Below, piece by piece: positions 3,064-23,526 of a stretch of DNA of 28,335 nucleotides (position 1 is the first letter of the stretch; every line of letters starts with the position of its first letter). The notes under the pieces are model-generated. The model made no database searches and was not told where the DNA came from. It saw only the letters and a program-made list of their open reading frames with translations. This stretch comes from a virus, in IMG/VR virus record IMGVR_UViG_3300022746_000049, positions 1 through 28,335 of that record. One strand, written 5' to 3'. Position numbers and translations under genes: made by a program.

Positions 3064-4490
3064 TATTTAACTCCCGACATTTCTACCAATTGTTTGCGCT
3101 TTTGCTCAATTTCTGCAAGATTGGACAAACCATTTTCACGCATCAATTTGCGCAAAGCCTCTTTGTCATGGTCATCAATTGCAGCTTTTTGACCAGTTCC
3201 AACGATTCCCATGTATTGCATCAAAACAGGGTCTTTAGAAAACTTACTGTATTCTGCTTGGAAATTGTTGACAGCAGGCAAGTTTGGATTGCGTGGGTCG
3301 CCTGCTGCGTTCATTGTGCCATTTGCAAGCAATTTTTGGTTTTGAATATTACCCAAATCTTGACGCACCAAATCGCTTAAAGCATCTTTCTTCAGACGGA
3401 AACTGCCATAAGCATCTTTTTTGCTTTGTGCATCTGCATCTGTACGAGGGTTCAGGTTTTGAATACGCTGCTGAATCAACTTCAGAACTTCTTGTTCTTT
3501 TGAAGTTAATGTAGCTTGGTTTGACTTCCCAGCCAATACATCTGCAATCGGACCTGTATTAACAGAAGGGTCTTTCAAATAAGTAAGTAACTTCTTGGCA
3601 ATAAATTCCTGTGTAGGAATATGGCCAGGCTTACTTGCATCTGTCAAAGCATTTACAGAGCCAACGTAATTGTTGATTGCTTGTGTTGCGCGTCCTCTTT
3701 CTGTTTCTGCTGTAGAACCTGTTGGGACAGCTTGAGGTGCATTTGCTTGACCTTGTGGAGCCATTCCAGGAGCAGATGAACCACCCATCAAGTTTGATGG
3801 AGCGCCTAAAGTTCCTTGTGGAGTTACTGGAGCTTGAACAATATTTCCAGTTACAGGGTCTGTAAATGTTTGAGTACGAACACCCATAGGGTTTGTTTGT
3901 GGCGTACCCATTACATCGTATTGACCAGTAACAGGATTTGCGGCAACGGCTTGACCCGCAGCATTGCTTGTCAATGTAGGTTTAACTAAACCAACTTGTT
4001 CTGAGGGACTAATTGATTGTTTAGATAACAATTGCAAAGCAGGCAAAATTTTGCTTGGGTCTTTGTGAGCCTGCACGATTAAAGGTGCAATTGCAGCACT
4101 TGCCTCGGATTTGCTAAAACCGCTTTTATGAAGTTCAGGCTTTAAATCATCAAAATATTCTGTGATTCCGTTTGCATCGTTACGTTTTATCAAATCCATT
4201 AAAACAGGGTCTGTTGCACTTGCTGCTGCCAAACGTGATGCTTCAACACGTTTTTTAACACTAAGTTCAAGTTCAGAACCTTTTGTCTCGGCTTCAGCTT
4301 TACGAACAGCTAAAGGATTCATCTTTTGCATTTGCTCAACTTCCATCTGAGCCTTTTGCAATTGCAAAGGATTCAGTTGGCCTTGTTGCTGAAACGCTTG
4401 CGCGCCACGCGCCATGTTAATTAGGTCGCCAAGACTTGTGCCTTGTTGTGCCGCAGGACCTAAGTTGGTATTGAATTGATAATCTGCCAT
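3063..4490 (-). CDS. Candidate ejection/internal virion protein at the P22 gp20 position
   Basis: The product has 475 residues, close to P22 gp20 (471). The first 130 residues are Gln/Ala/Lys-rich helix with likely coiled coil (about 45-90). Residues 190-265 are low-complexity Pro/Gly/Gln/Thr sequence built from short repeats (PQGTLGAPSN, APQGQANAPQ). The C-terminal 200 residues are again charged helix. No enzyme motif is visible. The gene lies between the other two ejection candidates, matching the 7-20-16 order of P22. The role of passing into the host with the DNA is inferred from position, length and composition. A scaffold-like internal core protein is the main alternative. Confidence 0.65.
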   Translation of the reverse strand: MADYQFNTNLGPAAQQGTSLGDLINMARGAQAFQQQGQLNPLQLQKAQMEVEQMQKMNPLAVRKAEAETKGSELELSVKKRVEASRLAAASATDPVLMDLIKRNDANGITEYFDDLKPELHKSGFSKSEASAAIAPLIVQAHKDPSKILPALQLLSKQSISPSEQVGLVKPTLTSNAAGQAVAANPVTGQYDVMGTPQTNPMGVRTQTFTDPVTGNIVQAPVTPQGTLGAPSNLMGGSSAPGMAPQGQANAPQAVPTGSTAETERGRATQAINNYVGSVNALTDASKPGHIPTQEFIAKKLLTYLKDPSVNTGPIADVLAGKSNQATLTSKEQEVLKLIQQRIQNLNPRTDADAQSKKDAYGSFRLKKDALSDLVRQDLGNIQNQKLLANGTMNAAGDPRNPNLPAVNNFQAEYSKFSKDPVLMQYMGIVGTGQKAAIDDHDKEALRKLMRENGLSNLAEIEQKRKQLVEMSGVK

Positions 4491-4499
4491 TTCAGTTCC

Positions 4500-5855
4500 T
4501 TATCCGACACGACCACCTTGGTTCAACAATGAAGCCAAAGTGTAGTTGTTAATCAAGTTGCCAGCAGTATTACCAAGCGCGTTTGCAACGCCAGTTGTGC
4601 CTGCCGCTTGAGCCGCTGCGCTACCAACACCCAACTGAGATGCTGCATTTGTTGCGTTTGTTGCGGCTGTGTTGGTGGCGTTTTGACCTGTCTGGCCAAT
4701 ACCTGCAATGCCCGCCAAAGTGTTGTAAATGTTTTGACGTTGAGTTTGATAGTTTCCAAAAGCGTTTTGATACGCATTTCCTGCGTAATCTTGCGTGTAC
4801 TTGTTCAAACCTTGCAAAGCATTACCGCCCAAAGCGCCACCACCCATGTTGGCTGCACGTTGATTGGCCATTTGGCCTTGTTGAAGCATGAAGTCATAAT
4901 TTGGTGCAAGACCTTTTTGCAGGTCAGTAGCATCAAATTGATGTTGCAAGTAACCAGAACCTGTGCCAGTGCCTGTAGGATTACCAGCGGCATCGTACAT
5001 TTGATATGTACCTGTACCCAACGCACCTAACTGATTCAATGCGCCAGTTCCAGCGGCTCGATATGGAGTTTGCTGCTTGTTAATCAGGTTGAAGTTTTGC
5101 TGTTGCAACTCAGCCGCCCTGTTAGCCGCATCTGCTTGTGCGCTTGCACCTTGATTAGCTGCGTAAGCACCAAGCAAGCCTGTTCCAATTTGACCAGCAG
5201 CCATGTAAGGCAACATTGAAGACAATGTAGAGCCAGCAGCGGCTCCAGCGGCAGCATTTGCAGCAGGAAACATATTGGCAGCTCCGATTGCGTCAACACC
5301 TGACAACGTTGCATTAGCGCCACCGCCTCCGGTCATTGCTAAAGCATCTTGTGCGTCTTGTGCTGCTGTGTATGCGTTTTCACCCATAGATGCAAGACCA
5401 GTACCGCCAAGGCCAGCGCCAGCTTCTGTGCTTGCGACTTGTGAAAGTGGCGTAACAGATGGGGCTGTGTAAGCGGCTCCAGCAGGCAATTCTCCGGTGA
5501 AAGCAGTGCCAGTTTGCAAAGCGCCAGCGTCAGCTACTTGAGAAGCAGGGACGGTAGCGCCTTCAGCGTTCATAAACGCTTGGATTTCAGGCTGATAATA
5601 GTAACCAGCAGCCAACAAAGCCGCTGTAGTCCAACCGCCTGGCACTACATCACGAACAGTTTGGTCAATCGCCTTGCCTGCGTTACCAACTTCATTGATA
5701 ACAGTTTGACCAATATCGCCAACGCCTGAGACAACGTTAGAAACGGCATCTGTCACGGCTGAGATAGGATTACCACCGCCCTCAAACGTCATTCTTCCGC
5801 CAATACGCTTAAAAGCATTGATTGGCAGTTCACCGAAAAAAGCGTTGTATCTCAT
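4500..5855 (-). CDS. Ala/Gly-rich candidate DNA ejection protein at the P22 gp7 position
   Basis: The product has 451 residues from the ATG at 5855. That start forms an ATGA overlap with the preceding gene and has GGAG eight bases upstream. An in-frame extension to 5906 would bury the neighbour's end and is rejected. The N-terminus carries small-residue helices and a hydrophobic patch near residue 75. The middle is extremely Ala/Gly-rich. A helical block (about 245-285) ends in NKQQTPYRAAG, a sequence I recognise from podophage injection proteins. The C-terminus has repeated Asn/Gln/Ala-rich segments. Position after gp4- and gp10-like genes suggests a first ejection protein, although P22 gp7 is only 229 residues. 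The repetitive codons create long open frames on the other strand that are not genes. Confidence 0.7.
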   Translation of the reverse strand: MRYNAFFGELPINAFKRIGGRMTFEGGGNPISAVTDAVSNVVSGVGDIGQTVINEVGNAGKAIDQTVRDVVPGGWTTAALLAAGYYYQPEIQAFMNAEGATVPASQVADAGALQTGTAFTGELPAGAAYTAPSVTPLSQVASTEAGAGLGGTGLASMGENAYTAAQDAQDALAMTGGGGANATLSGVDAIGAANMFPAANAAAGAAAGSTLSSMLPYMAAGQIGTGLLGAYAANQGASAQADAANRAAELQQQNFNLINKQQTPYRAAGTGALNQLGALGTGTYQMYDAAGNPTGTGTGSGYLQHQFDATDLQKGLAPNYDFMLQQGQMANQRAANMGGGALGGNALQGLNKYTQDYAGNAYQNAFGNYQTQRQNIYNTLAGIAGIGQTGQNATNTAATNATNAASQLGVGSAAAQAAGTTGVANALGNTAGNLINNYTLASLLNQGGRVG

Positions 5856-10103: not shown

Positions 10104-10415
10104 TTACAGGGCTGGTGTGAAGGTCTGAGGCAACCAAGGTGCTGGAACAGGCTTCTTTGACAGCGTTTCTAGCTGTTCTGCTAGGCGTGATTTTATGATG
10201 TTTTTACCATCAACAACAGCAGAATCTTCAATCCACTTGGCAATCATTTCTTCTGTCACTTCTGCAAAAGGAACGCCGCCTGGTTCTGGAAAACTCCAGT
10301 AGCCTTCTGTTTCTACGGTGTTTTGACCGTCATTAACAGAACAAAAATATTTTGCGGCAGTGATAGCACTTTGGCTGTCTGCGTAGACTTCTAGGATTTT
10401 CCAGACGTAGTTCAT
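10104..10415 (-). CDS. Hypothetical protein between fibre and gp4-like genes
   Basis: The product has 103 residues. It begins with a strand-rich segment (YVWKILEVYADSQSAITAAKYFC), continues with EGYWSFPEPGG and a helix EEMIAKWIEDSA, and ends with a Pro-rich tail. No catalytic motif or membrane segment is visible. Small proteins of this style accompany fibre genes in several phages, and a fibre chaperone or connector is one possibility, but this is inference. The start overlaps the end of the S74 fibre gene by ATGA, so it is translated with it. A nine-base gap separates it from the gp4-like gene. Confidence 0.7.
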   Translation of the reverse strand: MNYVWKILEVYADSQSAITAAKYFCSVNDGQNTVETEGYWSFPEPGGVPFAEVTEEMIAKWIEDSAVVDGKNIIKSRLAEQLETLSKKPVPAPWLPQTFTPAL

Positions 10416-11878
10416 TTTGGCGCTTTCAGGACTTCAACGTCAGCTTGCAGTTGGGTGATGATGGCTTGTTGTTCTTGAATAGCTGCTGTCAAAGTAGCAA
10501 CCAAGAAGCTGGTGTCAATACCTTGGTAAACAGGTACTTCACGCTCACCCATCACAGCCTCAACTGCTGGTGTCAGCTCATTACCTTCTTCATCATAGGT
10601 AGCTGGAACAGCGGGAGTGATCTCATATTGTTCAATACGAGTGGCGTCTTTCTCACCAGTTACACACCCAGCTACAACTTCTTGCAGTTCGTGAGCGATA
10701 AAACCTTCTCCAACCGAACCATCGGATTTCCATGTGTATGTGCAAGGCTTTAGTGCGGCAACCTTACTCAATGCTCCTGTCATGGGTGCAACATTTTCCT
10801 TAAGACGGTAGTCAGAAGAAGTGTTGTAAGCTGTTGCAGTTGTAGTAACAGAGATCGTACCAACGGCAGTACCGCTTCGACGCAATTCAATTGCAGTACC
10901 GTTAGACGTCTGCCTTCCTACAACTAATCCGGTATTTCCATCTCGAATGATTGCAGTGAAACCGCTGGGTTGAGACATAAAGCCAGTATTAGAACTACTT
11001 CCAATGTCCAGTGCACTTGTAGTCCCCACCAGCAAGTTACCGCTGGAGTCGATACGGGCACGTTCATTGTTGTTAGTACCAAATGTCAAAGGACGGCTTG
11101 CACCCAAAGCATATAAATTGAATCCCGAAGAATTTACGTTTATATAGCCTAAAGAAGTTGTATATGTTCCTGTCCCAGTAGAGTCTTGTAAAAAAATTTC
11201 AGAACCGCTTGTCCCTTTGAGAGTAAAAGTAGCAAATGAACCATCAGACACTGGGGTTGTAGTACCAACACCCAAATTCCCACTAGCATCAAGCGTCATT
11301 GCTTGGGTGAAGCTGATTGCGTTACCTGCTGTGCCTGATGCTGCTACGTTCCATTTGTGAACACCGTCACCAGAATTACCACTTTGTTGGTAAAGAGTGG
11401 CATAGTTAGAAGTAATATATTTCCAGTTTGTGCCATCGTAATAAGCGTTTGCGGCTGAGTAGTTACCACCACCAAGACCGCCAAAGCTAGCATTTACAAC
11501 TTGCAAAGCTTTAATACTTGTCCAAGCACTAGGCGTAACACCTACACCTACGTTCTGAGCAGTGTCAATAGTGACTGCAGTTGTTGTACCGTTAGTTTTA
11601 AAAAGCAGACTAGATGAACTTTGAACTATTGGCGTTGTGAGTGACGTTGAAGCAGAAAGAGTCGTAAACGCACCAGTATTTGGAGTTCCAGAACCAATCG
11701 TTCCAGGCGCTGTATAGGCGCTAGAAGCCAACATTGTGTTGGTCACAGTACCTGTGTCGCCTGTTGTCACCATTGTTCCAGCGGTTGCAGGGACGTTGAT
11801 GTTAAAGGTTGATGCTGTGTTAGGACCAACCAGATTAACCTGACCGCCCAAAGTTGCCTGAAATACTAAATTGCCCAT
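10412..11878 (-). CDS. Tail fibre with C-terminal S74 intramolecular chaperone
   Basis: The product has 488 residues. Residues 1-340 are Thr/Ser/Gly-rich beta shaft with recurring NLGVGTTTP and NLLVGTTSA turns. The Peptidase S74 domain starts at about 350: YNTSSDYRLKENV carries the presumed nucleophile Ser355 and Lys360, spaced as in the Ser-Lys dyad of this family, then GFIAHELQEVV at 392-402. The C-terminal helix (about 458-485) is a coiled coil that helps trimerisation. S74 domains guide fibre trimer folding and then cut themselves off. A strong Shine-Dalgarno (AAGGAAGAATC before ATG) precedes the start. It lies beside a second fibre gene, and both are inserted between the capsid and gp4-like genes, unlike P22. 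Confidence 0.88.
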   Translation of the reverse strand: MGNLVFQATLGGQVNLVGPNTASTFNINVPATAGTMVTTGDTGTVTNTMLASSAYTAPGTIGSGTPNTGAFTTLSASTSLTTPIVQSSSSLLFKTNGTTTAVTIDTAQNVGVGVTPSAWTSIKALQVVNASFGGLGGGNYSAANAYYDGTNWKYITSNYATLYQQSGNSGDGVHKWNVAASGTAGNAISFTQAMTLDASGNLGVGTTTPVSDGSFATFTLKGTSGSEIFLQDSTGTGTYTTSLGYINVNSSGFNLYALGASRPLTFGTNNNERARIDSSGNLLVGTTSALDIGSSSNTGFMSQPSGFTAIIRDGNTGLVVGRQTSNGTAIELRRSGTAVGTISVTTTATAYNTSSDYRLKENVAPMTGALSKVAALKPCTYTWKSDGSVGEGFIAHELQEVVAGCVTGEKDATRIEQYEITPAVPATYDEEGNELTPAVEAVMGEREVPVYQGIDTSFLVATLTAAIQEQQAIITQLQADVEVLKAPK

Positions 11879-14760: not shown

Positions 14761-15423
14761 TTACCTATTTCTCAGGTAATTTCCTAGATGGCCTTCGAAG
14801 ATTTTATAACCAATATGCCCCATTGCGATTTCTGGGTCAATCCACACTTTCCCGCCAATCTTTTGCCACCGGATACAGAAGCTGTAATCCTCGCCCCATT
14901 TGTAACCATCCTCAAAAATATGGTCAAACAAAGGATAAAACTTCTTATCTCTTTCTGCGGTGTAAAAGTGACGATCTGGGTATTCAGCAATCATTTTTTC
15001 AATGCAATTACGGCTAATCTTCATAAATCCTGTGGCCACTGATTTAACTTCTAAAAGCCCCGTTTCTGGGTCTGCCCACAGTTCAGGCTTATCAAGATAA
15101 TGAAGGGGGTAATTGATAGGGTCACGCCTGCCAGGATAAACGCCAGCAACCAAATCTGCTTTAGCGTCCACTAACTTGAGCAAAGCGCCAGGCTGCCAAG
15201 TCACATCAGAATCAACAAAAATCAAATCATCGCAGTCTGATTCCAAAAAGCGTGTGGCAATAATTCCTCTACTGTCAGCGATTAAAGCATTTCCAATGTC
15301 ATCCACCAATGTGTAGCGGTCCCCCCTTTTGACCAACTCCAATGTGTCGTTCAGTAAGGAACGCATTGTTCCCATGTGTACCACGCCCGTATAAGCAGGG
15401 ATGGCAATCATTATGTGTTTCAT
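14761..15423 (-). CDS. GT-A family (GT2-like) glycosyltransferase
   Basis: The product has 220 residues. The N-terminal strand IMIAIPAYTG and the helix around NALIADSRG lead to DLIFVDSDVTW, whose DSD at 71-73 is the metal and nucleotide-sugar binding DxD motif. VATGFM at 129-134 and GEDYSFC at 177-183 match the acceptor-side and catalytic ED motifs of GT2-like enzymes. GHIGYK follows near 202. No membrane segment is present, so it is a soluble enzyme. Placement in the middle of the virion operon suggests a virion protein, the DNA or a host surface polymer as target, but the sequence does not say which. An intrinsic terminator lies just upstream, so expression depends on read-through or a separate start. 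Confidence 0.85.
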   Translation of the reverse strand: MKHIMIAIPAYTGVVHMGTMRSLLNDTLELVKRGDRYTLVDDIGNALIADSRGIIATRFLESDCDDLIFVDSDVTWQPGALLKLVDAKADLVAGVYPGRRDPINYPLHYLDKPELWADPETGLLEVKSVATGFMKISRNCIEKMIAEYPDRHFYTAERDKKFYPLFDHIFEDGYKWGEDYSFCIRWQKIGGKVWIDPEIAMGHIGYKIFEGHLGNYLRNR

Positions 15424-15782: not shown

Positions 15783-17033
15783 TTAGGATGCAACGCGGCA
15801 AGCCAATTCAGGGTACAGAGGCGCCCAACCGTACAACACATCCAAACGAGTTGGGATGCTGTCGTTGTTGATCGTGTACTGACGAACCACACGCATCGAC
15901 AAGCCGATTTCTTTGTCAGAGGCACGACCAGCGAAATGCACACCTTCTGGCAACTCAAGGTCAGCCACAGCCAAAGTAAACGCATTTTTGTGCATCACGA
16001 TGTTTTGGGCAGACACAGCACCAGTAGCGTTGAACTGAGTAACAGCAGCAGTGCTAGAAGTTGATGGGATGCTCACGTTTTGGAACTGACCAGCAGTAAT
16101 CACGGCTGGAGACACAGTAACGGCCACGGTAGAACCAGAGCTGATAGAAGCAGCTGTCTTAACCACGAAGTTACGGAGCTTGTTAGAGCCGTAAGGTTGG
16201 CGGTTTTGTGGGTTAACTGCGTACACACCAGCAATAGTGAACACGTCACCAGCGTTAAGGTTCACAGTTGCAGTAGCAGCAGTGATGCTCACAGTACCAG
16301 AAGAAGCCCAACCAGTGGTCAAGAAGCCAGTACCAGTTGTGGTGTTCACAGAGGCAGTAGCGTTAGCGCCGTTAGTGCCGAAAGTTTGAGACACAACGTT
16401 TTGGTCAAGTTTCCAGTTCATACCGCCAGAATCACGGCCCATCAAACCTTTACGGTATTGCGAACCAATGGCTTCTTGAGGAACAAACAAACCTTTCAAG
16501 CTGTTCACGATGGAAGCAGATGTAAAGGGTTCAACGATACATGAACGGCGGCCATCGCGAGGTGCGCCTTCGCTGTCCAGATATGCGCCTGCGGTCAAGT
16601 AGGTCAGCAGATCGGTAGGAACAACGCCAGCAGTACCAACGATGTTGGCAGTTTGGGCCACGGCCATAGCCATACCGTCACGGTCAATCTTGTTAGCGAT
16701 AGCTGCAATTGCGGGCTTCAACACACGGTCGCTGAACATATCCAAGCTCAGAGCCAAGTCTTGAGTTGTGAATTGTGTGTCAACGTGGAACTGTGTGGAC
16801 AAGGTAACGGGCACACTGGTTTCGTTGAAGTCTTCAACGTTCAGAGCAGGGCCAGTAGTACCAATGAAACGACCAGGCTTGCGAACGTTCACGGTGTTAC
16901 CGATCTTAGCGCCCACAACAGCAAACTGGTCGTCATAGTTGCGGTCAACTTCAGAAGTGAAGGTCAACTCGTTTTCCAAGACCATCAACGCTTCGTTGGT
17001 GATCTTGCTAATGGTCAATAAATTGTTTGACAT
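15783..17033 (-). CDS. Major capsid protein, P22 coat (gp5) family
   Basis: The product has 416 residues, against 430 for P22 gp5. The N-terminus (LLTISKITNEALMVLENELTF, spanning residues 5-25) followed by NTVNVRKPGRF and the segment TQFHVDTQFTTQDLALSLD are diagnostic of the P22 coat family (HK97-like fold with an inserted domain). Further support comes from KIDRDGMAMA and the C-terminal YTINNDSIPTRLDVLYGWAPLYPELACRV. It forms the icosahedral shell around scaffold. The ribosome site is GAAAGAAAATC before ATG. The spacing to the scaffold gene is 24 bases. Folding of P22 coat depends on GroEL/GroES, which is relevant to the GroES-like gene at 22990-23274. Confidence 0.93.
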   Translation of the reverse strand: MSNNLLTISKITNEALMVLENELTFTSEVDRNYDDQFAVVGAKIGNTVNVRKPGRFIGTTGPALNVEDFNETSVPVTLSTQFHVDTQFTTQDLALSLDMFSDRVLKPAIAAIANKIDRDGMAMAVAQTANIVGTAGVVPTDLLTYLTAGAYLDSEGAPRDGRRSCIVEPFTSASIVNSLKGLFVPQEAIGSQYRKGLMGRDSGGMNWKLDQNVVSQTFGTNGANATASVNTTTGTGFLTTGWASSGTVSITAATATVNLNAGDVFTIAGVYAVNPQNRQPYGSNKLRNFVVKTAASISSGSTVAVTVSPAVITAGQFQNVSIPSTSSTAAVTQFNATGAVSAQNIVMHKNAFTLAVADLELPEGVHFAGRASDKEIGLSMRVVRQYTINNDSIPTRLDVLYGWAPLYPELACRVAS

Positions 17034-17057: not shown

Positions 17058-17954
17058 TTACCGAATCTTGCCTGCTTTACGGAGTTCTTTCCACTGTGCT
17101 GCTGTACCAAAAAAGACCCCATTGGAATCTAGTGGTACATCAGGAGTGTTTTTACCCCCGCGAATTGGCGTGATCGGTGCTGGTGCTTTACTTCTAACAA
17201 TAGGGGCTGGTTTCTCGGCTTCAGGTTTTGCCTCAAATCGAGCTTCCAACTTCCCAATCTCTCGCAACGCTGCTTTTGGCGACAATCCAGCGATTTTTTG
17301 TGCGATTTCATCGTTTTCAGCTAGGTGATACAGGATTTGTGGGCCTACGTCACTCTCCAGAATCGCATCACGAATGTCGTCATTTACGACCACATCGCTT
17401 GACGCAACAATGTCATCAAAATCTGGCAAGGTAGCTTTCACCGCTTCGACCTTTTTAGCCCAAGTCTGAATGACTTTTTGCTGTTCTTCGGCCTGTTTAG
17501 CTGCTGCTTCTTGCTGCTTCATTTCAGCGATTCGCTTGTCTGCTGTGTACTCTGCGAGTGCCTCGGCATATTCAAACGCATCACTAAATTGGCTGGGTTG
17601 CGGCTTTTCGTCCACAGGGTTAGCCTTTTGAGGCTGTGCCTTGTTTTCTAAAGCTGCCAAACGCGCTTCTAGAGCTTGCCTTGCTTCACGTTCTTGTTGC
17701 GCTTCTTTACGCGCTTCTTCACGTTGCTTAGTAATCTCAGAAAAACGGCGCTCAAGTTTAGGATTGTGCTTACGCTCACCCTCTTGTTTTGCTTCGGCTT
17801 CTGCTTCTTCAGGTTCACTCTGTTCAACTACCTCTGTCGGCTCCGATTCATCGGCCACGACTTCGGCGGGTGATTCAGCTAAACCTAATCTGTTTGCATA
17901 AAATTCCGCTGCGTTGTCGCTCGTCAAAACTTGACTTGCTTCTTTTTCAGACAT
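17058..17954 (-). CDS. Scaffolding protein, P22 gp8-like
   Basis: The product has 298 residues, very close to P22 gp8 (303). It is highly charged and mostly helical. An acidic N-terminus (EVVADESEPTEVVEQSEPEE) leads into a long Glu/Lys/Arg/Ala coiled coil (about 55-125) and further helices with Gln-rich stretches (about 130-165). The C-terminus ends with a basic helical segment (TAAQWKELRKAGKIR), in keeping with the positively charged coat-binding helix-turn-helix of P22 scaffold. It lies between portal and coat as in P22. It would direct coat assembly and leave the procapsid before packaging. Confidence 0.88.
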   Translation of the reverse strand: MSEKEASQVLTSDNAAEFYANRLGLAESPAEVVADESEPTEVVEQSEPEEAEAEAKQEGERKHNPKLERRFSEITKQREEARKEAQQEREARQALEARLAALENKAQPQKANPVDEKPQPSQFSDAFEYAEALAEYTADKRIAEMKQQEAAAKQAEEQQKVIQTWAKKVEAVKATLPDFDDIVASSDVVVNDDIRDAILESDVGPQILYHLAENDEIAQKIAGLSPKAALREIGKLEARFEAKPEAEKPAPIVRSKAPAPITPIRGGKNTPDVPLDSNGVFFGTAAQWKELRKAGKIR

Positions 17955-18021: not shown

Positions 18022-20133
18022 TTATTGTTGCATCAATGGATTTTGGCCTTGGTCAATGTCCTGTGCTGCTGCTTGTGCGTATTTAGCCTGTTCAGCATTA
18101 CGCAAGGTAATCTCGCGCTCCAAGCGGCCTGTGTCCATGTGGTGAATCAAAAGCTGAACAATTGCATCCAATTCGGTCTTGTTCTGGCTTGTGATTGCGC
18201 GGGTGTTCTGGTCATTGACCTTAACTTCAGCCATGGTTTCAGTGTTATGGGCACGAGCAGTAACGTCCATCAGCTTGCGCTTGTTCTCGTTATCCTGCTT
18301 AACTTGCTCAATGTCCTGACGCTGTTTAATCGTCATTTGCATTGCCTGAAGCTGTTGCGTCAATTGTTTGATTTGCTCGTCAGACTGCTTGATCTTCATC
18401 TGAGCCAATGGCGGGATTTCGCTGTGATCGTCAATCTGAGCCAATGGGTTAGCAGCGGCCAAACGGTCTGCAATCACATCAGCGCCGGGCCAATCCATGT
18501 TGCGGAACACCAAATCTCCGCAAGTCTGCATCAAAGCAGGGTCTGCTGACAGCAATGGGAGCATGGATTCCACGGCTTCTTGGCGCTTGGAGTTGTAACC
18601 AGGGCCAGTGTCCATAACCACATCGTATTGGCCAACAGTAATGTCGTTCAAAACTCGGCCAACGGAATCACGCTGGTTAATGGTCAACAACTCTGGTTTT
18701 CCATCGTCACCAATGATTCGCATCACACGCTCGGTGTCGTAAATCTTAGGCAACAAGTCCAAAATGATTGTGCCAGCGTGAGAAATTGAGCGAGTCAAGT
18801 TGTCGTAATAGTCGTAGTTTGTCAGGTCAACTTGTTGTTGTTGGCCATTTAAAGCCTTGCCTGAGATATTGCCCTGCTTGAGTTGTGCAGGGTCAAACAC
18901 GCCCATGATGGACTTAATGTCGTCATCCACACCAGCAGCAGCGGCCATGATGCCAGCTTGAGGTGGTTCTGGTTGTAGACGCACAGGCACAGGCGCAGGA
19001 CGACCATCAATGTCTGTTTGCTTATAACGCAGCAATGGGAACGATTTGATGTTGGCGTTAGCCCAATCGTTTTCGTGGCCTTCGTCTTGGCCTTCTGCAA
19101 TCAACCACTTAGCTTTTGGAGCCAGCGCAACGCCTTCTGTGATTGAAGTTTGCCAGAAGTTATACATGCGCTGTGGGTCTTTGGCATATCGAATCATGCC
19201 AAATTTCTTGCGCTTGTCGCCCACCACGATATGACGACCATAAACAGGAATGATTGGAATGTACTTGCCAGGCCAAATGCCTTCTTCAATTACATCAATA
19301 GCTGTGAGTTTGCAATATTTGATTGTCTTTTTGTAAGAAGGGCGTTGGTCAACCACCACAATGCCAGCCATTTGCAGACGAGCAAACATATCTTTGTCAT
19401 CAGCAAACGTAGAAGAACCATCGCTCAACTGATACAAAGTGGCTTTTTCACGGACCGTATAGAAATATTCAGCAAGGCGAATATCCTCTTTTGTAATCCA
19501 CTCCGATTGGCTGTCACCCGTACCACGTTGCGTAAAAGACGTACCACCATCAACCGATGCGTCTGGATAGAGCTTGGAAAACTCTTTCTTTGGCATCATT
19601 GTTGTAATTAAACAACGGTCAGCGTCAGAGCCATCAGGCGCTACTGAATTGGGGTCAAAGTAGACGGTGAAAGGGTTATCAATAGGGTCAATGTAGATTT
19701 CTTGCTCAAAAGAATCTTCCGAAACGTAGTCTGTACGGATACGGAAAAAGCCCCAACCCATGCGCACAGCGTACTCAAAAGCATTGTCGTAAGCGTGATC
19801 GGCGTTTGAGTTGTTCTCAATATGGCGCACGATGCCTTGAATGGTCTGCGCGTCCACCATGTCCTCATGCGTGTTCATTGCATGGACTTTTATGCGCGGG
19901 CGCTGTTGACGTTGTTGGTTACAGACTTGGCGGCAGTAGTTATCTACCTTGTTTACGGTAATAACAGGGCGAGATTCCAGATTGCGTGAGTTCTGCAATT
20001 CCACTGGCCATTGATCGCCACCACCAAATTTAAGGTCCTCAAGAGCCTCTTGGCGATTCATTGTGTCGGCATCATTTGCCAGTTTCAGGAATTCAATTGC
20101 TTCTTGAATCCGTGGGTCGTAATCGTCTGCCAT
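18022..20133 (-). CDS. Portal protein, P22 gp1-like
   Basis: The product has 703 residues, against 725 for P22 gp1. The N-terminus (IQEAIEFLKLANDADTMNRQ, then EDLKFGGGDQWP) matches the P22-type portal family. The body has VITVNKVDNYCRQVCNQQRQ and HIENNSNADHAYDNAFEYAV, which are typical, and the C-terminal 150 residues form long Gln/Lys-rich helix (barrel-like region), ending in GQNPLMQQ. Twelve copies form the DNA gate at one capsid vertex, where terminase docks and gp4-like protein later binds. The start ATG at 20133 follows GGACATAT. Gene order terminase-portal-scaffold-coat supports the call. Confidence 0.93.
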   Translation of the reverse strand: MADDYDPRIQEAIEFLKLANDADTMNRQEALEDLKFGGGDQWPVELQNSRNLESRPVITVNKVDNYCRQVCNQQRQQRPRIKVHAMNTHEDMVDAQTIQGIVRHIENNSNADHAYDNAFEYAVRMGWGFFRIRTDYVSEDSFEQEIYIDPIDNPFTVYFDPNSVAPDGSDADRCLITTMMPKKEFSKLYPDASVDGGTSFTQRGTGDSQSEWITKEDIRLAEYFYTVREKATLYQLSDGSSTFADDKDMFARLQMAGIVVVDQRPSYKKTIKYCKLTAIDVIEEGIWPGKYIPIIPVYGRHIVVGDKRKKFGMIRYAKDPQRMYNFWQTSITEGVALAPKAKWLIAEGQDEGHENDWANANIKSFPLLRYKQTDIDGRPAPVPVRLQPEPPQAGIMAAAAGVDDDIKSIMGVFDPAQLKQGNISGKALNGQQQQVDLTNYDYYDNLTRSISHAGTIILDLLPKIYDTERVMRIIGDDGKPELLTINQRDSVGRVLNDITVGQYDVVMDTGPGYNSKRQEAVESMLPLLSADPALMQTCGDLVFRNMDWPGADVIADRLAAANPLAQIDDHSEIPPLAQMKIKQSDEQIKQLTQQLQAMQMTIKQRQDIEQVKQDNENKRKLMDVTARAHNTETMAEVKVNDQNTRAITSQNKTELDAIVQLLIHHMDTGRLEREITLRNAEQAKYAQAAAQDIDQGQNPLMQQ

Positions 20134-20163: not shown

Positions 20164-21447
20164 TTAGCCCATCCAGCTATTAGCGCCACCATAATTTACT
20201 TGCGGTCTAGGCGTTCTACGCTGTTTAGGCTCGTTCACCATCAATCCAATGTAACGGAAAGCATCTGCCCCGTGGCTGTAATTGTCGTGAACTGGAGTCT
20301 TTGAGAACTGTTTGGTATCTGGGTCAACGTCATACCGATAATGACGCAAGCACTGCAATCCATCGTGGCAATTGTCGCGGTCAAACCAGCAGTTTCTGAA
20401 AATTGTCCTGGCTGCGTTGATACTGTCCAAGATCGGCGTCTTAGGAATAATCTTTGTTTTATAGCCAGCAGCCCTAACAATCTCCTCAATGCTTCGGCCA
20501 TTGCCTGCCAAAGTTTTGTTTTCAGCGTCATGCGGAAGCCAAAGCGTGTCATAGATATATCCAAATGTCTGCATCTTGGCCAGATACTCGCTCATGGTCT
20601 GCTGATTGCCCTCAATGTAGCGAATCAGGCGCGTTTCCATGCCCACAAACTGAAGAAACCAAATGGCCGTAGCGTCAGACCAACCCAAGTCAAAAATGGC
20701 GTGTACGGGCTTTGTAGGGTCGTAGTTGACCTTTGTGATGCGTCCATCAAGCTCTGCGACTTGCATTTCTTTGGCAAACACCGCACCGTCTACGGTCTGG
20801 CGGCACAAACCTTCCCAAACCACGTTGTAAGCTTGCGGGTCACGGGCTTTGAGTTGGTCTTTTTCAAGTCTAAGCGTGTCAGGAAACCAAGGGTTGTCCG
20901 ACCAATTGATCTTGACCACCAAGCAATCATCTGGTGGGTATAGCACAAACCGCTGATAAGTTTCGTCTGATTCTAACTCAGGGTTGAACGTAATCCAAAT
21001 CTCCGAGTTTGGCTTTCGGATTGTAGGAATAAGCACATTCCAGCTCAATCGGCTGGTTGTCTGGGCTTCTTCTACCCAACAAATATCTACACCTTCGTAG
21101 GATTTGACATTAGCAACGTTGTTTTTTAGGCCAACAAAGTTAAATTCAGAGCCGTTTTTGCCACGAATGTTGGTTTGGGTGATCTCATAGAATCCCATCA
21201 GACCAAGCGCCTCAATTTGGTCACACAACAGTTTGTGAACCGAGTCTTTGATTGAAGTCTGAAACTCACGGGCGCAAAGAATACGCAATGGCTCTTTTGC
21301 AGCTTTAATTAACAATGCCCTAGCCACACCCCAAGACTTCGCTCCACCTCGTCCACCGTACAAAACTTTGTAGCGCGACTTTTCAAACAAACATTGAAGT
21401 TTGATCGGGAACTGAGCGTTAGCAATAGCGCCTTGTAGTTCACTCAT
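20164..21447 (-). CDS. Terminase large subunit (ATPase-nuclease)
   Basis: The product has 427 residues from ATG 21447, which overlaps the small-subunit stop as ATGAGTGA. A TTG start at 21462 is possible but weaker. The ATPase domain shows Walker A GGRGGAKS (31-38), Walker B VDICWVEE (120-127) and the coupling segment WITFNPE (151-157). The nuclease domain has the acidic residues in IFDLGWSD (Asp253), LPHDAEN (Asp307) and HGADAFRY (Asp394), as expected of the RNase H-like terminase nuclease. It resembles the PBSX/Terminase_3-type group. It pumps DNA through the portal and cuts the concatemer. The cut mode (headful or cohesive) cannot be told from the sequence. Confidence 0.94.
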   Translation of the reverse strand: MSELQGAIANAQFPIKLQCLFEKSRYKVLYGGRGGAKSWGVARALLIKAAKEPLRILCAREFQTSIKDSVHKLLCDQIEALGLMGFYEITQTNIRGKNGSEFNFVGLKNNVANVKSYEGVDICWVEEAQTTSRLSWNVLIPTIRKPNSEIWITFNPELESDETYQRFVLYPPDDCLVVKINWSDNPWFPDTLRLEKDQLKARDPQAYNVVWEGLCRQTVDGAVFAKEMQVAELDGRITKVNYDPTKPVHAIFDLGWSDATAIWFLQFVGMETRLIRYIEGNQQTMSEYLAKMQTFGYIYDTLWLPHDAENKTLAGNGRSIEEIVRAAGYKTKIIPKTPILDSINAARTIFRNCWFDRDNCHDGLQCLRHYRYDVDPDTKQFSKTPVHDNYSHGADAFRYIGLMVNEPKQRRTPRPQVNYGGANSWMG

Positions 21448-21901
21448 CCGTAGGCTTGACAAAAGTTACGTTGATACCAGACAGCAAAGGCGCACCATCA
21501 GCACCTGTGATTTCTTGTTCCATCTTGTCACGCCAACCAAGAACATTCTTTGCCGTAAAAATGCTGAAATTGGCATGAAAAGCATTAGCCATTGCGCCTT
21601 CAACAAGAATTGCCTCTTGAAAATCTTTTGCTCTCTTATAGGCGTAGGAAAAATCAGGATGCTTTAGTTCTCCATTTTCATGTTTTGCTGTTGCCCATTC
21701 ATAAAGAGTGTCTCTTGTCACACCAATACTAATGGCAAATCGAGCCAAAGTAGGAAACTTAGCAGGCACGACTTCAGAACCTTTTTCGTTACCTTGAGCA
21801 TCTAGCAATGGTCTACGTTCAAAAGGTTCAATGTCAAAGTACGCAATCAATTGATCTGCGTATTCTTCTTTAAATAAAGTCGGTCTGCCTCGGTTTGTCA
21901 T
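21440..21901 (-). CDS. Terminase small subunit
   Basis: The product has 153 residues, against 162 for P22 gp3. It opens RGRPTLFKEEYADQLIAYFD and contains a helix-turn-helix (TLARFAISIGVTRDTLYEWA, about 50-69). A second helical block follows (YKRAKDFQEAILVEGAMANA) with GWRDKMEQEITG. These elements are typical of small terminase subunits that recognise the packaging site and recruit the large subunit. The start forms ATGA with the preceding 47-residue gene, and the stop overlaps the large-subunit start. The packaging site may lie in or near this gene, as in P22, but I see no obvious site. Confidence 0.88.
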   Translation of the reverse strand: MTNRGRPTLFKEEYADQLIAYFDIEPFERRPLLDAQGNEKGSEVVPAKFPTLARFAISIGVTRDTLYEWATAKHENGELKHPDFSYAYKRAKDFQEAILVEGAMANAFHANFSIFTAKNVLGWRDKMEQEITGADGAPLLSGINVTFVKPTDE

Positions 21902-22052: not shown

Positions 22053-22634
22053 ATGGGTGGCAAACGAAATCAAGGTCAAATTAAACATTGCTTAAATTGC
22101 GGCAAAGAAGAATATGTTCCACCATATCGTCTTCACACTCACAAATTTTGTAGTCGTTCATGCGGTTCACAATGGAAAAGCAAAAATGAAACGGTTGAAA
22201 AATCATGTCAAATTTGCAATTCATTATTTCATGTTATTTATCATAGAGCAAATACTGCAAAATACTGTAGCAATGAATGTCGTTATAAGGGAATGAAAGG
22301 CAAAGGCCTTACGTCTTATACTTGTCAACATTGTCATAAAGAATTTTTAAGTTCAGCTTCTACGAAAAGAAAATTTTGCAGTCGTGAATGTGTAAACAAA
22401 TCTTCTAAAGAATCTTTTAAACCAGTTTTTTCTACAGTCAGAAAGATGATGATCGCAAGAAACATGATAGAAAAATGTTTTAGATGCGGTTTTGATGAAT
22501 TTAAACAAATTCTTGGTGTACACCACAAAGACCGCAATCGTCACAATAACGAACTTTCAAATTTAGAAGTTCTTTGTCCCAATTGTCATTCCATAGAACA
22601 CATGAAGCATACACCTCATGGTTTTAAAGAATAA
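22053..22634 (+). CDS. HNH homing-type endonuclease with three zinc fingers
   Basis: The product has 193 residues. Three similar zinc-binding modules of CxxC...C(x3)C form come first: Cys13/16/33/37, 52/55/72/76 and 91/94/109/113. The HNH core follows: Cys142/145, VHHKDRNRHN (His157/158), then NLEVLCPNCHSIEH with Cys175/178. HNH nucleases of this kind nick or cut target DNA and often promote their own spread. The gene runs against all its neighbours and fits between them with 11 and 3 spare bases. It is visibly richer in A/T codons than the flanking genes, which suggests recent arrival. No adjacent intron is evident, so it looks free-standing. Confidence 0.9.
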   Translation: MGGKRNQGQIKHCLNCGKEEYVPPYRLHTHKFCSRSCGSQWKSKNETVEKSCQICNSLFHVIYHRANTAKYCSNECRYKGMKGKGLTSYTCQHCHKEFLSSASTKRKFCSRECVNKSSKESFKPVFSTVRKMMIARNMIEKCFRCGFDEFKQILGVHHKDRNRHNNELSNLEVLCPNCHSIEHMKHTPHGFKE

Positions 22635-22637
22635 AAA

Positions 22638-22802
22638 TTAGTTAGAAACTTCAGCTTCTGTATTTGAAGTTTCTTTCTTCTCCAGTTGGGTTAATTGCCA
22701 TTTGCACTGCTCTAGCGCACCGTTAATCATGTGAATCTGCACTTCTAACTGCTTGCCTTGGGACATCAGTTCATCCATGCGCTTTTGAATCTGCTCTTTC
22801 AT
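22638..22802 (-). CDS. Small helical protein, function unknown
   Basis: The product has 54 residues. It begins MKEQIQKRMDELMSQGKQLE and is one long charged helix to about residue 43 (QLTQLEKKE), with hydrophobic heptad spacing, then a polar Ser/Thr/Glu tail. A coiled-coil oligomer is likely. Start 22802 overlaps the preceding gene by ATGA, which supports it as real despite its size. Its stop lies three bases from the end of the convergent HNH gene. Function is not recognisable. Confidence 0.7.
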   Translation of the reverse strand: MKEQIQKRMDELMSQGKQLEVQIHMINGALEQCKWQLTQLEKKETSNTEAEVSN

Positions 22803-22993
22803 GCTTTCTCTCCAAAATAAGCCAATACGTCAATGTCTTTGTTTAAATCTCTGAAACGTTCTTCAAAAGAGTAAACGATTCCTTTATACATATTGGCATA
22901 GTAACGATTTCCGTTACTTTTATACAACGTCAACTGCCGCTTGGCTATGCTGTAAGCCAATGCCAAGTTGTATATGTTTTCTTTGACAATCAT
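22799..22993 (-). CDS. Small hypothetical protein
   Basis: The product has 64 residues. It is predicted mainly helical, with an aromatic-rich middle (YKSNGNRYYANMYKGIVYSF) and a charged end (EERFRDLNKDIDVLAYFG). No metal-binding, nuclease or membrane signature is seen. It is joined by ATGA overlaps to the GroES-like gene before it and to the coiled-coil gene after it, so it belongs to the same translational unit. Family not recognised. Confidence 0.7.
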   Translation of the reverse strand: MIVKENIYNLALAYSIAKRQLTLYKSNGNRYYANMYKGIVYSFEERFRDLNKDIDVLAYFGEKA

Positions 22994-23274
22994 TCTTCAA
23001 CAGCGCAAATGTCTTGCCAGCTCATCCGCAAACAGGTGTCTTCGCCCAATTTGATCGGTTCAAACTTCAAATACTCATCTTTGGCTGTACCTGCAACCGT
23101 ACCAAAATGGACTTTATCGCCCATCTTTAGTCCTTGGCGCATAGCATCGTCACCCAAAGCGACCACATGGCCTGTCGTGGGGTAGCCTTCCACCTTGCTC
23201 AAGTCCAACAATTCAGACTTAAAGCGCACTTCAGGCTTCACAATGATTTTGTCGCGCAATGGCTTGATGTTCAT
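22990..23274 (-). CDS. GroES-like co-chaperonin (Cpn10 family)
   Basis: The product has 94 residues, the usual Cpn10 size. It starts MNIKPLRDKIIVKPE, the family's first strand (PLxDRVxVK). A loop of about 16 residues follows, with KSELLDLS where GroES has its mobile loop and GroEL-binding IVL triplet. Then come TTGHVVALGDD (GxVxAVG), GLKMGDKVHFG (VKVGDxVxF) and CLRMSWQDICAVEE (the ED-I-AxxE end). It would cap host GroEL and change its chamber or selectivity, as T4 gp31 does for T4 capsid protein. No GroEL is encoded in the window. Neighbours are late small genes and packaging genes. The coat protein is the likeliest client, by inference from P22. Confidence 0.88.
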   Translation of the reverse strand: MNIKPLRDKIIVKPEVRFKSELLDLSKVEGYPTTGHVVALGDDAMRQGLKMGDKVHFGTVAGTAKDEYLKFEPIKLGEDTCLRMSWQDICAVEE

Positions 23275-23498
23275 GCCGCCACCTTTTTGGTGTATTTGCG
23301 TTTTGGCTTGTCTTCCGTCATCTCACGGACAGGCAAAGCAAGCATATCTGGCACAGGCTCTGAATAAGGCACAGGCAAAAACTCTCCACACCAATCATGT
23401 GGCGAGCGTGTTTGAAACAGCGGGTATCGCCGACAAACACCAATGCTGTGTCCACTATCTACAAAATGGTCACAAGCTTTACAATAACGTTCAACCAT
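23271..23498 (-). CDS. Cys-rich small protein, probable zinc binder
   Basis: The product has 75 residues from ATG 23498, which has GGAG eight bases upstream. A TTG at 23504 is closer than a ribosome site allows. Four cysteines (CKACDHF at 6/9, then VCRRYP and WCGEF) plus two His residues could bind one metal ion. The C-terminal third is Pro-rich and basic (DKPKRKYTKKVAA), suggesting nucleic acid or protein contact. The stop overlaps the GroES-like start by ATGA, so the two are produced together. A role with the chaperonin is conceivable only from linkage. Confidence 0.72.
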   Translation of the reverse strand: MVERYCKACDHFVDSGHSIGVCRRYPLFQTRSPHDWCGEFLPVPYSEPVPDMLALPVREMTEDKPKRKYTKKVAA

Positions 23499-23526
23499 TT
23501 TCAAATCTCCTTATTTGATTTGGCTA

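Follow-up and report, generated by a model that had tools for sequence, protein, structure and literature searches.

Why a phage of the P22 type should carry a lid for GroEL among its head genes, and which protein such a lid would help to fold, are the questions raised by a groES-like gene in an IMG/VR viral record of 28,335 bases (hereafter the window, meaning this whole stretch of DNA). The P22 coat protein is a model for capsid-protein folding with GroEL/GroES.

The groES-like gene and the head genes

The late genes of the window are arranged as in P22 and are encoded by the minus strand. The window is probably a fragment, since its relatives reach 34–37 kb. The relevant genes, from upstream to downstream, are as follows.

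23271..23504, minus strand: 77-aa four-cysteine protein, upstream of the groES-like gene with an ATGA overlap; a conserved neighbor
22990..23274, minus strand: groES-like co-chaperonin gene, 94 aa, ATG start (Cpn10 profile and fold; ω 0.06–0.15)
22799..22993, minus strand: 64-aa protein, downstream of the groES-like gene with an ATGA overlap (ORF call, conserved neighborhood)
22053..22634, plus strand: HNH endonuclease-like gene, separating the groES cassette from the terminase (PHROG 1271, E 8.7e-25; PF01844)
21440..21901, minus strand: small terminase subunit (PHROG 3064, PF16677)
20164..21462, minus strand: large terminase subunit, TerL (PF04466, 136.3 bits)
18022..20133, minus strand: P22-type portal (PF16510, 570.6 bits)
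17058..17954, minus strand: scaffold, from its position between portal and coat and 38% identity to the region of phage PBR31 annotated as scaffold
15783..17033, minus strand: P22-type coat, 416 aa, the candidate client (PF11651, 125 bits; model Z 31.1 to the P22 procapsid)

The groES-like gene is a genuine coding sequence. Across 22990–23274 the plus strand is interrupted by a stop, and the minus strand is open. Codon comparison with 15 relatives gives dN/dS (ω) of 0.06–0.15 in the 14 computable pairs, and at least 256 relatives of the protein are present in IMG/VR, which together rule out a chance ORF. Because of the ATGA overlaps, the genes for the 77-aa protein, the GroES-like protein, and the 64-aa protein are probably co-translated. 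The 77-aa protein, with the motifs CKACDHF...GVCRRYP...WCGEF, adjoins GroES in most relatives, and the annotation of MW202674.1 names its counterpart a high-potential iron-sulphur protein.

The original prediction, made from the sequence of the window, was that of a GroES-like co-chaperonin beside the packaging genes of a P22-type phage. The portal and coat profiles, the coat fold, and the P22 gene order all agree with this type of phage. In particular, the coat model (pLDDT 81.4) matches the P22 procapsid across 364 residues, and the best match outside the P22/Sf6/CUS-3 group reaches a Z of 17.7 across 244 residues. The location beside the packaging genes is also correct, although the opposite-strand HNH gene intervenes. 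Among the relatives, the gap between groES and TerL can be as short as 0.66 kb or as long as 2.75 kb, a spread that would suit the gain and loss of mobile genes.

The gene product belongs to the Cpn10 family

The 94-aa protein matches the Cpn10 profile PF00166 with 28 bits, above the cut-off of 21.1 (E 2.3e-6), and the match runs over nearly the full length (residues 2–91 on positions 1–91 of 93). It also matches PHROG 3188, "co-chaperonin GroES" (E 1.1e-5). The Cpn10 profile matches 33 of the 33 aligned relatives, and the sole other family found is ADH_N ("GroES-like domain"), in three of them. The best of the NCBIfam GroES models gives 26.4 bits, below its curated cut-off of 96. By these profile matches, we classify the protein as a Cpn10, not an ordinary bacterial GroES.

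The predicted fold, the β-barrel of Cpn10, is consistent with this classification. An AlphaFold2 single-chain model built from 33 sequences has a pLDDT of 75.8 and a pTM of 0.67, and its top Foldseek match is E. coli GroES (E 5.4e-5, probability 1.00). In a second structural alignment, the model superimposes on 4v4o_P, the Cpn10 of Thermus thermophilus, with a Z of 9.5 and an rmsd of 2.2 Å over 81 residues. The first 13 rows of this search are all Cpn10, with GroES (1aon) at Z 8.6. Dehydrogenases reach at most Z 5.6, well below the Cpn10 structures, which rules out a "GroES-like" domain of the dehydrogenase type. Matches to VPS4 in a phmmer search were set aside, since only residues 17–91 align and the fold is different. 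The Cpn10 framework named by the original prediction is thus borne out, and the identification as a GroES-like co-chaperonin of a P22-type phage is supported by sequence, fold, synteny, and selection.

As the prediction also stated, no GroEL is encoded in the window: a search found none in its 28.3 kb. The records of 39 relatives have none either. Therefore, any chaperone action of the protein needs host GroEL.

The mobile loop is short and the roof is missing

Alignment to E. coli GroES places three features in the protein.

23173..23229, minus strand: mobile loop, residues 16–34, VRFKSELLDLSKVEGYPTT
23200..23211, minus strand: LLDL, residues 22–25, at the place of the IVL GroEL-contact segment of GroES; a putative GroEL-binding segment
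23131..23154, minus strand: shortened roof segment GDDAMRQG, residues 41–48

The mobile loop has 19 residues versus 22 in E. coli GroES, which confirms the predicted short loop with LLDL in place of IVL. LLDL sits in a low-confidence loop of the model, and the presence of the hydrophobic segment is a feature of the sequence. By a loose criterion, a hydrophobic pair is found in all 97 aligned loops, E. coli GroES included. The roof hairpin is missing, because the roof segment has 8 residues versus 15 in E. coli GroES.

Most relatives likewise have a mobile loop of 17–19 residues and no roof. A roof of 14–15 residues is kept in eight relatives with a window-type coat (L112, L124, L130, L141, L146, L148, L149, and L163). 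It seems that the geometry of the lid was altered on several occasions and that the gene was retained throughout. One of these eight loci, L124, has two different Cpn10 genes (4008–4314 and 4619–4895), which are about 300 bases apart and both upstream of the terminase.

The gene follows one head lineage

Eighty relatives fetched by the GroES-like protein share the neighborhood. Since fetching by this protein selects for the gene, the loci were refetched by the coat protein. Viral contigs were collected with the coats of the window, PBR31, and DSL-LC05, and bacterial genomes with a coat alignment. Cpn10 genes were sought by iterated HMM, and, under one rule throughout, a locus counted only if its sequence extended 7 kb or more upstream from the coat. 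The Cpn10 gene is present in 28/28 loci with window-type coats and 15/15 with PBR31-type coats, in 12/35 with DSL-LC05-type coats, and in 0/33 with other P22-type coats. The pattern is unchanged at upstream thresholds of 8 and 9.4 kb. The PBR31-type loci include Paraburkholderia and Burkholderia contigs of 97–271 kb, presumably prophages, in which the gene is again upstream of the coat. Nine distant P22-coat phages from a public phage collection lack a Cpn10 gene both by Pfam and by HMM.

In the coat tree, the window lies inside a clade with 100% support, whose 38 rows are all GroES-positive. The whole tree needs six changes of presence, versus a mean of 29.8 in shuffles. The tree asked more coverage of negatives than of positives, and the equal-coverage tally is therefore the fairer measure. 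The gene thus goes with a single head lineage. The 43 window-type and PBR31-type loci, all positive, are mutually related and do not represent 43 independent events. No checkable member of the lineage has lost the gene, though the identity of GroES has fallen to 26–40%.

Two loci with window-type coats and no Cpn10 gene, L253 and L310, were left out. They have only 2.2 and 1.5 kb, respectively, before TerL, and are uninformative because the gap between groES and TerL reaches 2.75 kb in some positives. A first whole-record Pfam count of 14/28 missed divergent copies and was replaced by the HMM count; tblastn detects copies that the Pfam count missed, in L095, L136, and L088, at 50–57% identity. 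A comparison with the retention of neighboring genes was set aside as unfair, since the neighbors were sought by tblastn and GroES by HMM. Two matches labeled "Acinetobacter phage" were rejected. The one examined, L083 (CAKLQH020000021.1, "Acinetobacter phage MD-2021a"), is a bacterial chromosome here, with the host groS-groL operon, glpK, and pckG, and its label looks wrong.

In a sister group of P22-type coats (L337, L339, L348, and L404), shorter Cpn10 genes of 80–82 aa occur patchily and at varying distances upstream of the coat. They apparently reflect separate acquisition or frequent loss.

A proposed role in folding a head protein

The reading that we favor, with moderate confidence, is that a Cpn10-fold lid replaces host GroES on host GroEL late in infection and is kept because it helps to fold at least one head protein, most likely the coat. 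The protein would assemble as a seven-membered lid and would bind host GroEL via the hydrophobic LLDL of its short mobile loop. It would thereby displace host GroES from GroEL during late infection, and for at least one P22-type head protein the phage lid would be a better aid to folding than that of the host. The presence of the gene in every checkable phage of this head type suggests a need for folding a head protein, but universal retention could also reflect shared ancestry of the gene block rather than need. The coat is the first candidate for the client because it is the most abundantly made and fits the cage, and because of the P22 precedent and the link of the gene to the head lineage.

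The P22 precedent, which the original prediction invoked as known, holds in part. Temperature-sensitive mutants of the P22 coat do use GroEL/GroES, but the wild-type coat is a weak GroE client, with far less GroEL/S interaction than is seen for these mutants (PMC2267774). The proposal that the protein retargets host GroEL to the coat at 15783–17033 is supported indirectly: all 43 loci of the lineage and the 38-row clade are positive for the gene. The weak correlation of GroES with the coat (see below) and the 12/35 count in the DSL-LC05-type group speak against it, and so do the P22-type coats of the 33 other loci, which are never accompanied by the gene. We regard the coat as a plausible candidate client.

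The distances between proteins do not indicate close matching of lid and coat. In the 43 loci that have the full set of genes, GroES diverges most, with a mean distance of 0.48 versus 0.15 for the coat. Within the window group, PBR31 excluded, the distances of GroES correlate with those of the coat at r 0.22, of TerL at 0.47, of the portal at 0.51, and of the scaffold at 0.61. GroES proteins of 30–40% identity are found beside coats of 82–89% identity, which speaks against lids that are finely adapted to their coats. In the DSL-LC05-type group, coats that are close on the tree occur with and without the gene; therefore, the coat fold alone does not require it. A client co-segregating with GroES was sought in this group, and the families of the coat and of the scaffold position occur either way. 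A single small family, located near −4 kb, occurs in 6 of 12 GroES-positive and 0 of 18 GroES-negative loci, and may be another Cpn10 copy.

These distances are also what would be expected of the main rival, in which the phage supplies a lid of general use that caps host GroEL for any phage or host protein in need of it, so that the capacity for folding is maintained late in infection or where host GroES is scarce, with no dedicated head client. Dissimilar lids beside near-identical coats and a weak GroES–coat correlation both fit such a supply, as does the ability of T4 gp31 to substitute for GroES on E. coli clients (PMC6318259). However, the distribution of the gene agrees nearly perfectly with the head lineage, although the terminases differ and the hosts probably do too, and we consider a general supply less probable. 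The rapid divergence of the protein, its changing loop lengths, and its constant presence would also fit an arms race, in which the role of the lid is to lock host GroEL or divert it, so that host folding is shut down or a host defence countered, rather than to fold a client. We think this very improbable: selection among close relatives is strongly purifying, and the gene is placed with the late head genes and linked to the coat lineage.

Reuse of the Cpn10 fold for a job other than that of a chaperone, such as that of an adaptor for structure or packaging near the terminase, is in our view also very improbable. The gene does adjoin the terminase in most relatives, and strict GroES models score low. 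But the protein keeps the full Cpn10 length, the hydrophobic loop segment, and both end strands, no terminase or portal homologue is fused to or known with a Cpn10 fold, and the position of the gene varies in the DSL-type group. Returning to the folding of a head protein, a stronger version can be put forward tentatively, as a possibility that we do not count as probable: one lineage of P22-fold coats has become dependent on a dedicated GroEL lid, whose roof and mobile loop were repeatedly remodeled while the gene was never lost, giving cages unlike those of GroES or gp31.

Comparison with known co-chaperonins

Compared with E. coli GroES and bacterial Cpn10 in general, the window protein retains the fold, the N-terminal KPLRDKIIVK strand, the GDKV strand, and the C-terminal strand. 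It differs from E. coli GroES in the loop shortened by three residues, in LLDL for IVL, in the loss of the roof, and in an extra KDEYLKF segment.

The parallel with T4 gp31 drawn by the original prediction is a partial one. Both are encoded by a phage, have the Cpn10 fold, and would act with the GroEL of the host, the roof loop is absent from both, and the model of the window protein matches the gp31 structures 1g31 and 2cgt with Z of 6.9 and 7.0, respectively. In T4, the phage lid serves a capsid protein: gp31 provides a larger cage for the 56-kDa client gp23 through a longer mobile loop and missing roof loops (PMC6318259). In contrast, the mobile loop of the window protein is shorter than that of GroES, not lengthened, and we therefore do not file the protein as a gp31 orthologue. 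The two proteins are 12–15% identical, and gp31 is not from a P22-type phage. The size argument made for gp31 is inapplicable here, since a 416-aa coat should fit the ordinary GroEL/GroES cage.

Closer relatives are orf017 of Xanthomonas phage PBR31, a cultured phage, and the protein of ctn9Y15 (MW202674.1), a circular record; both are already annotated as co-chaperonin GroES. Both genes are placed before the terminase in phages with a P22-type portal and coat, and the proteins are 26% (PBR31) and 40% (ctn9Y15) identical to the window protein. The PBR31 protein differs in that its mobile loop is long and a roof loop is present, and the paper on PBR31 does not mention its GroES gene (PMC10975493). 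Pseudoalteromonas siphovirus B8b also has a stand-alone phage GroES near structural genes, which was proposed to help virion proteins (PMC4294664). The likeness to B8b is one of published description; B8b is a siphovirus with the gene near tail genes, and its authors placed earlier phage co-chaperonins in myo- and podoviruses (PMC4294664).

Phage co-chaperonins as such are thus already known. A literature search, with most subscription journals outside its reach, found no paper linking GroES with P22-type coats and no experimental work on the window protein or a near relative of it, and the lineage-wide link between GroES and coat appears undiscussed in the literature searched. A large natural P22-type lineage, widespread in metagenomes, always has a phage lid with its head genes, and sister lineages are without it. 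The contrast between these lineages makes it possible to distinguish a single capsid client from general folding by experiment, and the strict link to the coat lineage is worth testing.

Other genes of the window

An ORF at 14761–15423 (minus strand), downstream of the coat among the structural genes, resembles a glycosyltransferase by eye. A Pfam search gave no match for it at E 0.01, and it occurs in some relatives and not in others. A putative tail protein at 10412–11878 (minus strand) ends in a C-terminal Peptidase_S74 domain (chaperone of endosialidase), a second, built-in folding helper in this genome.
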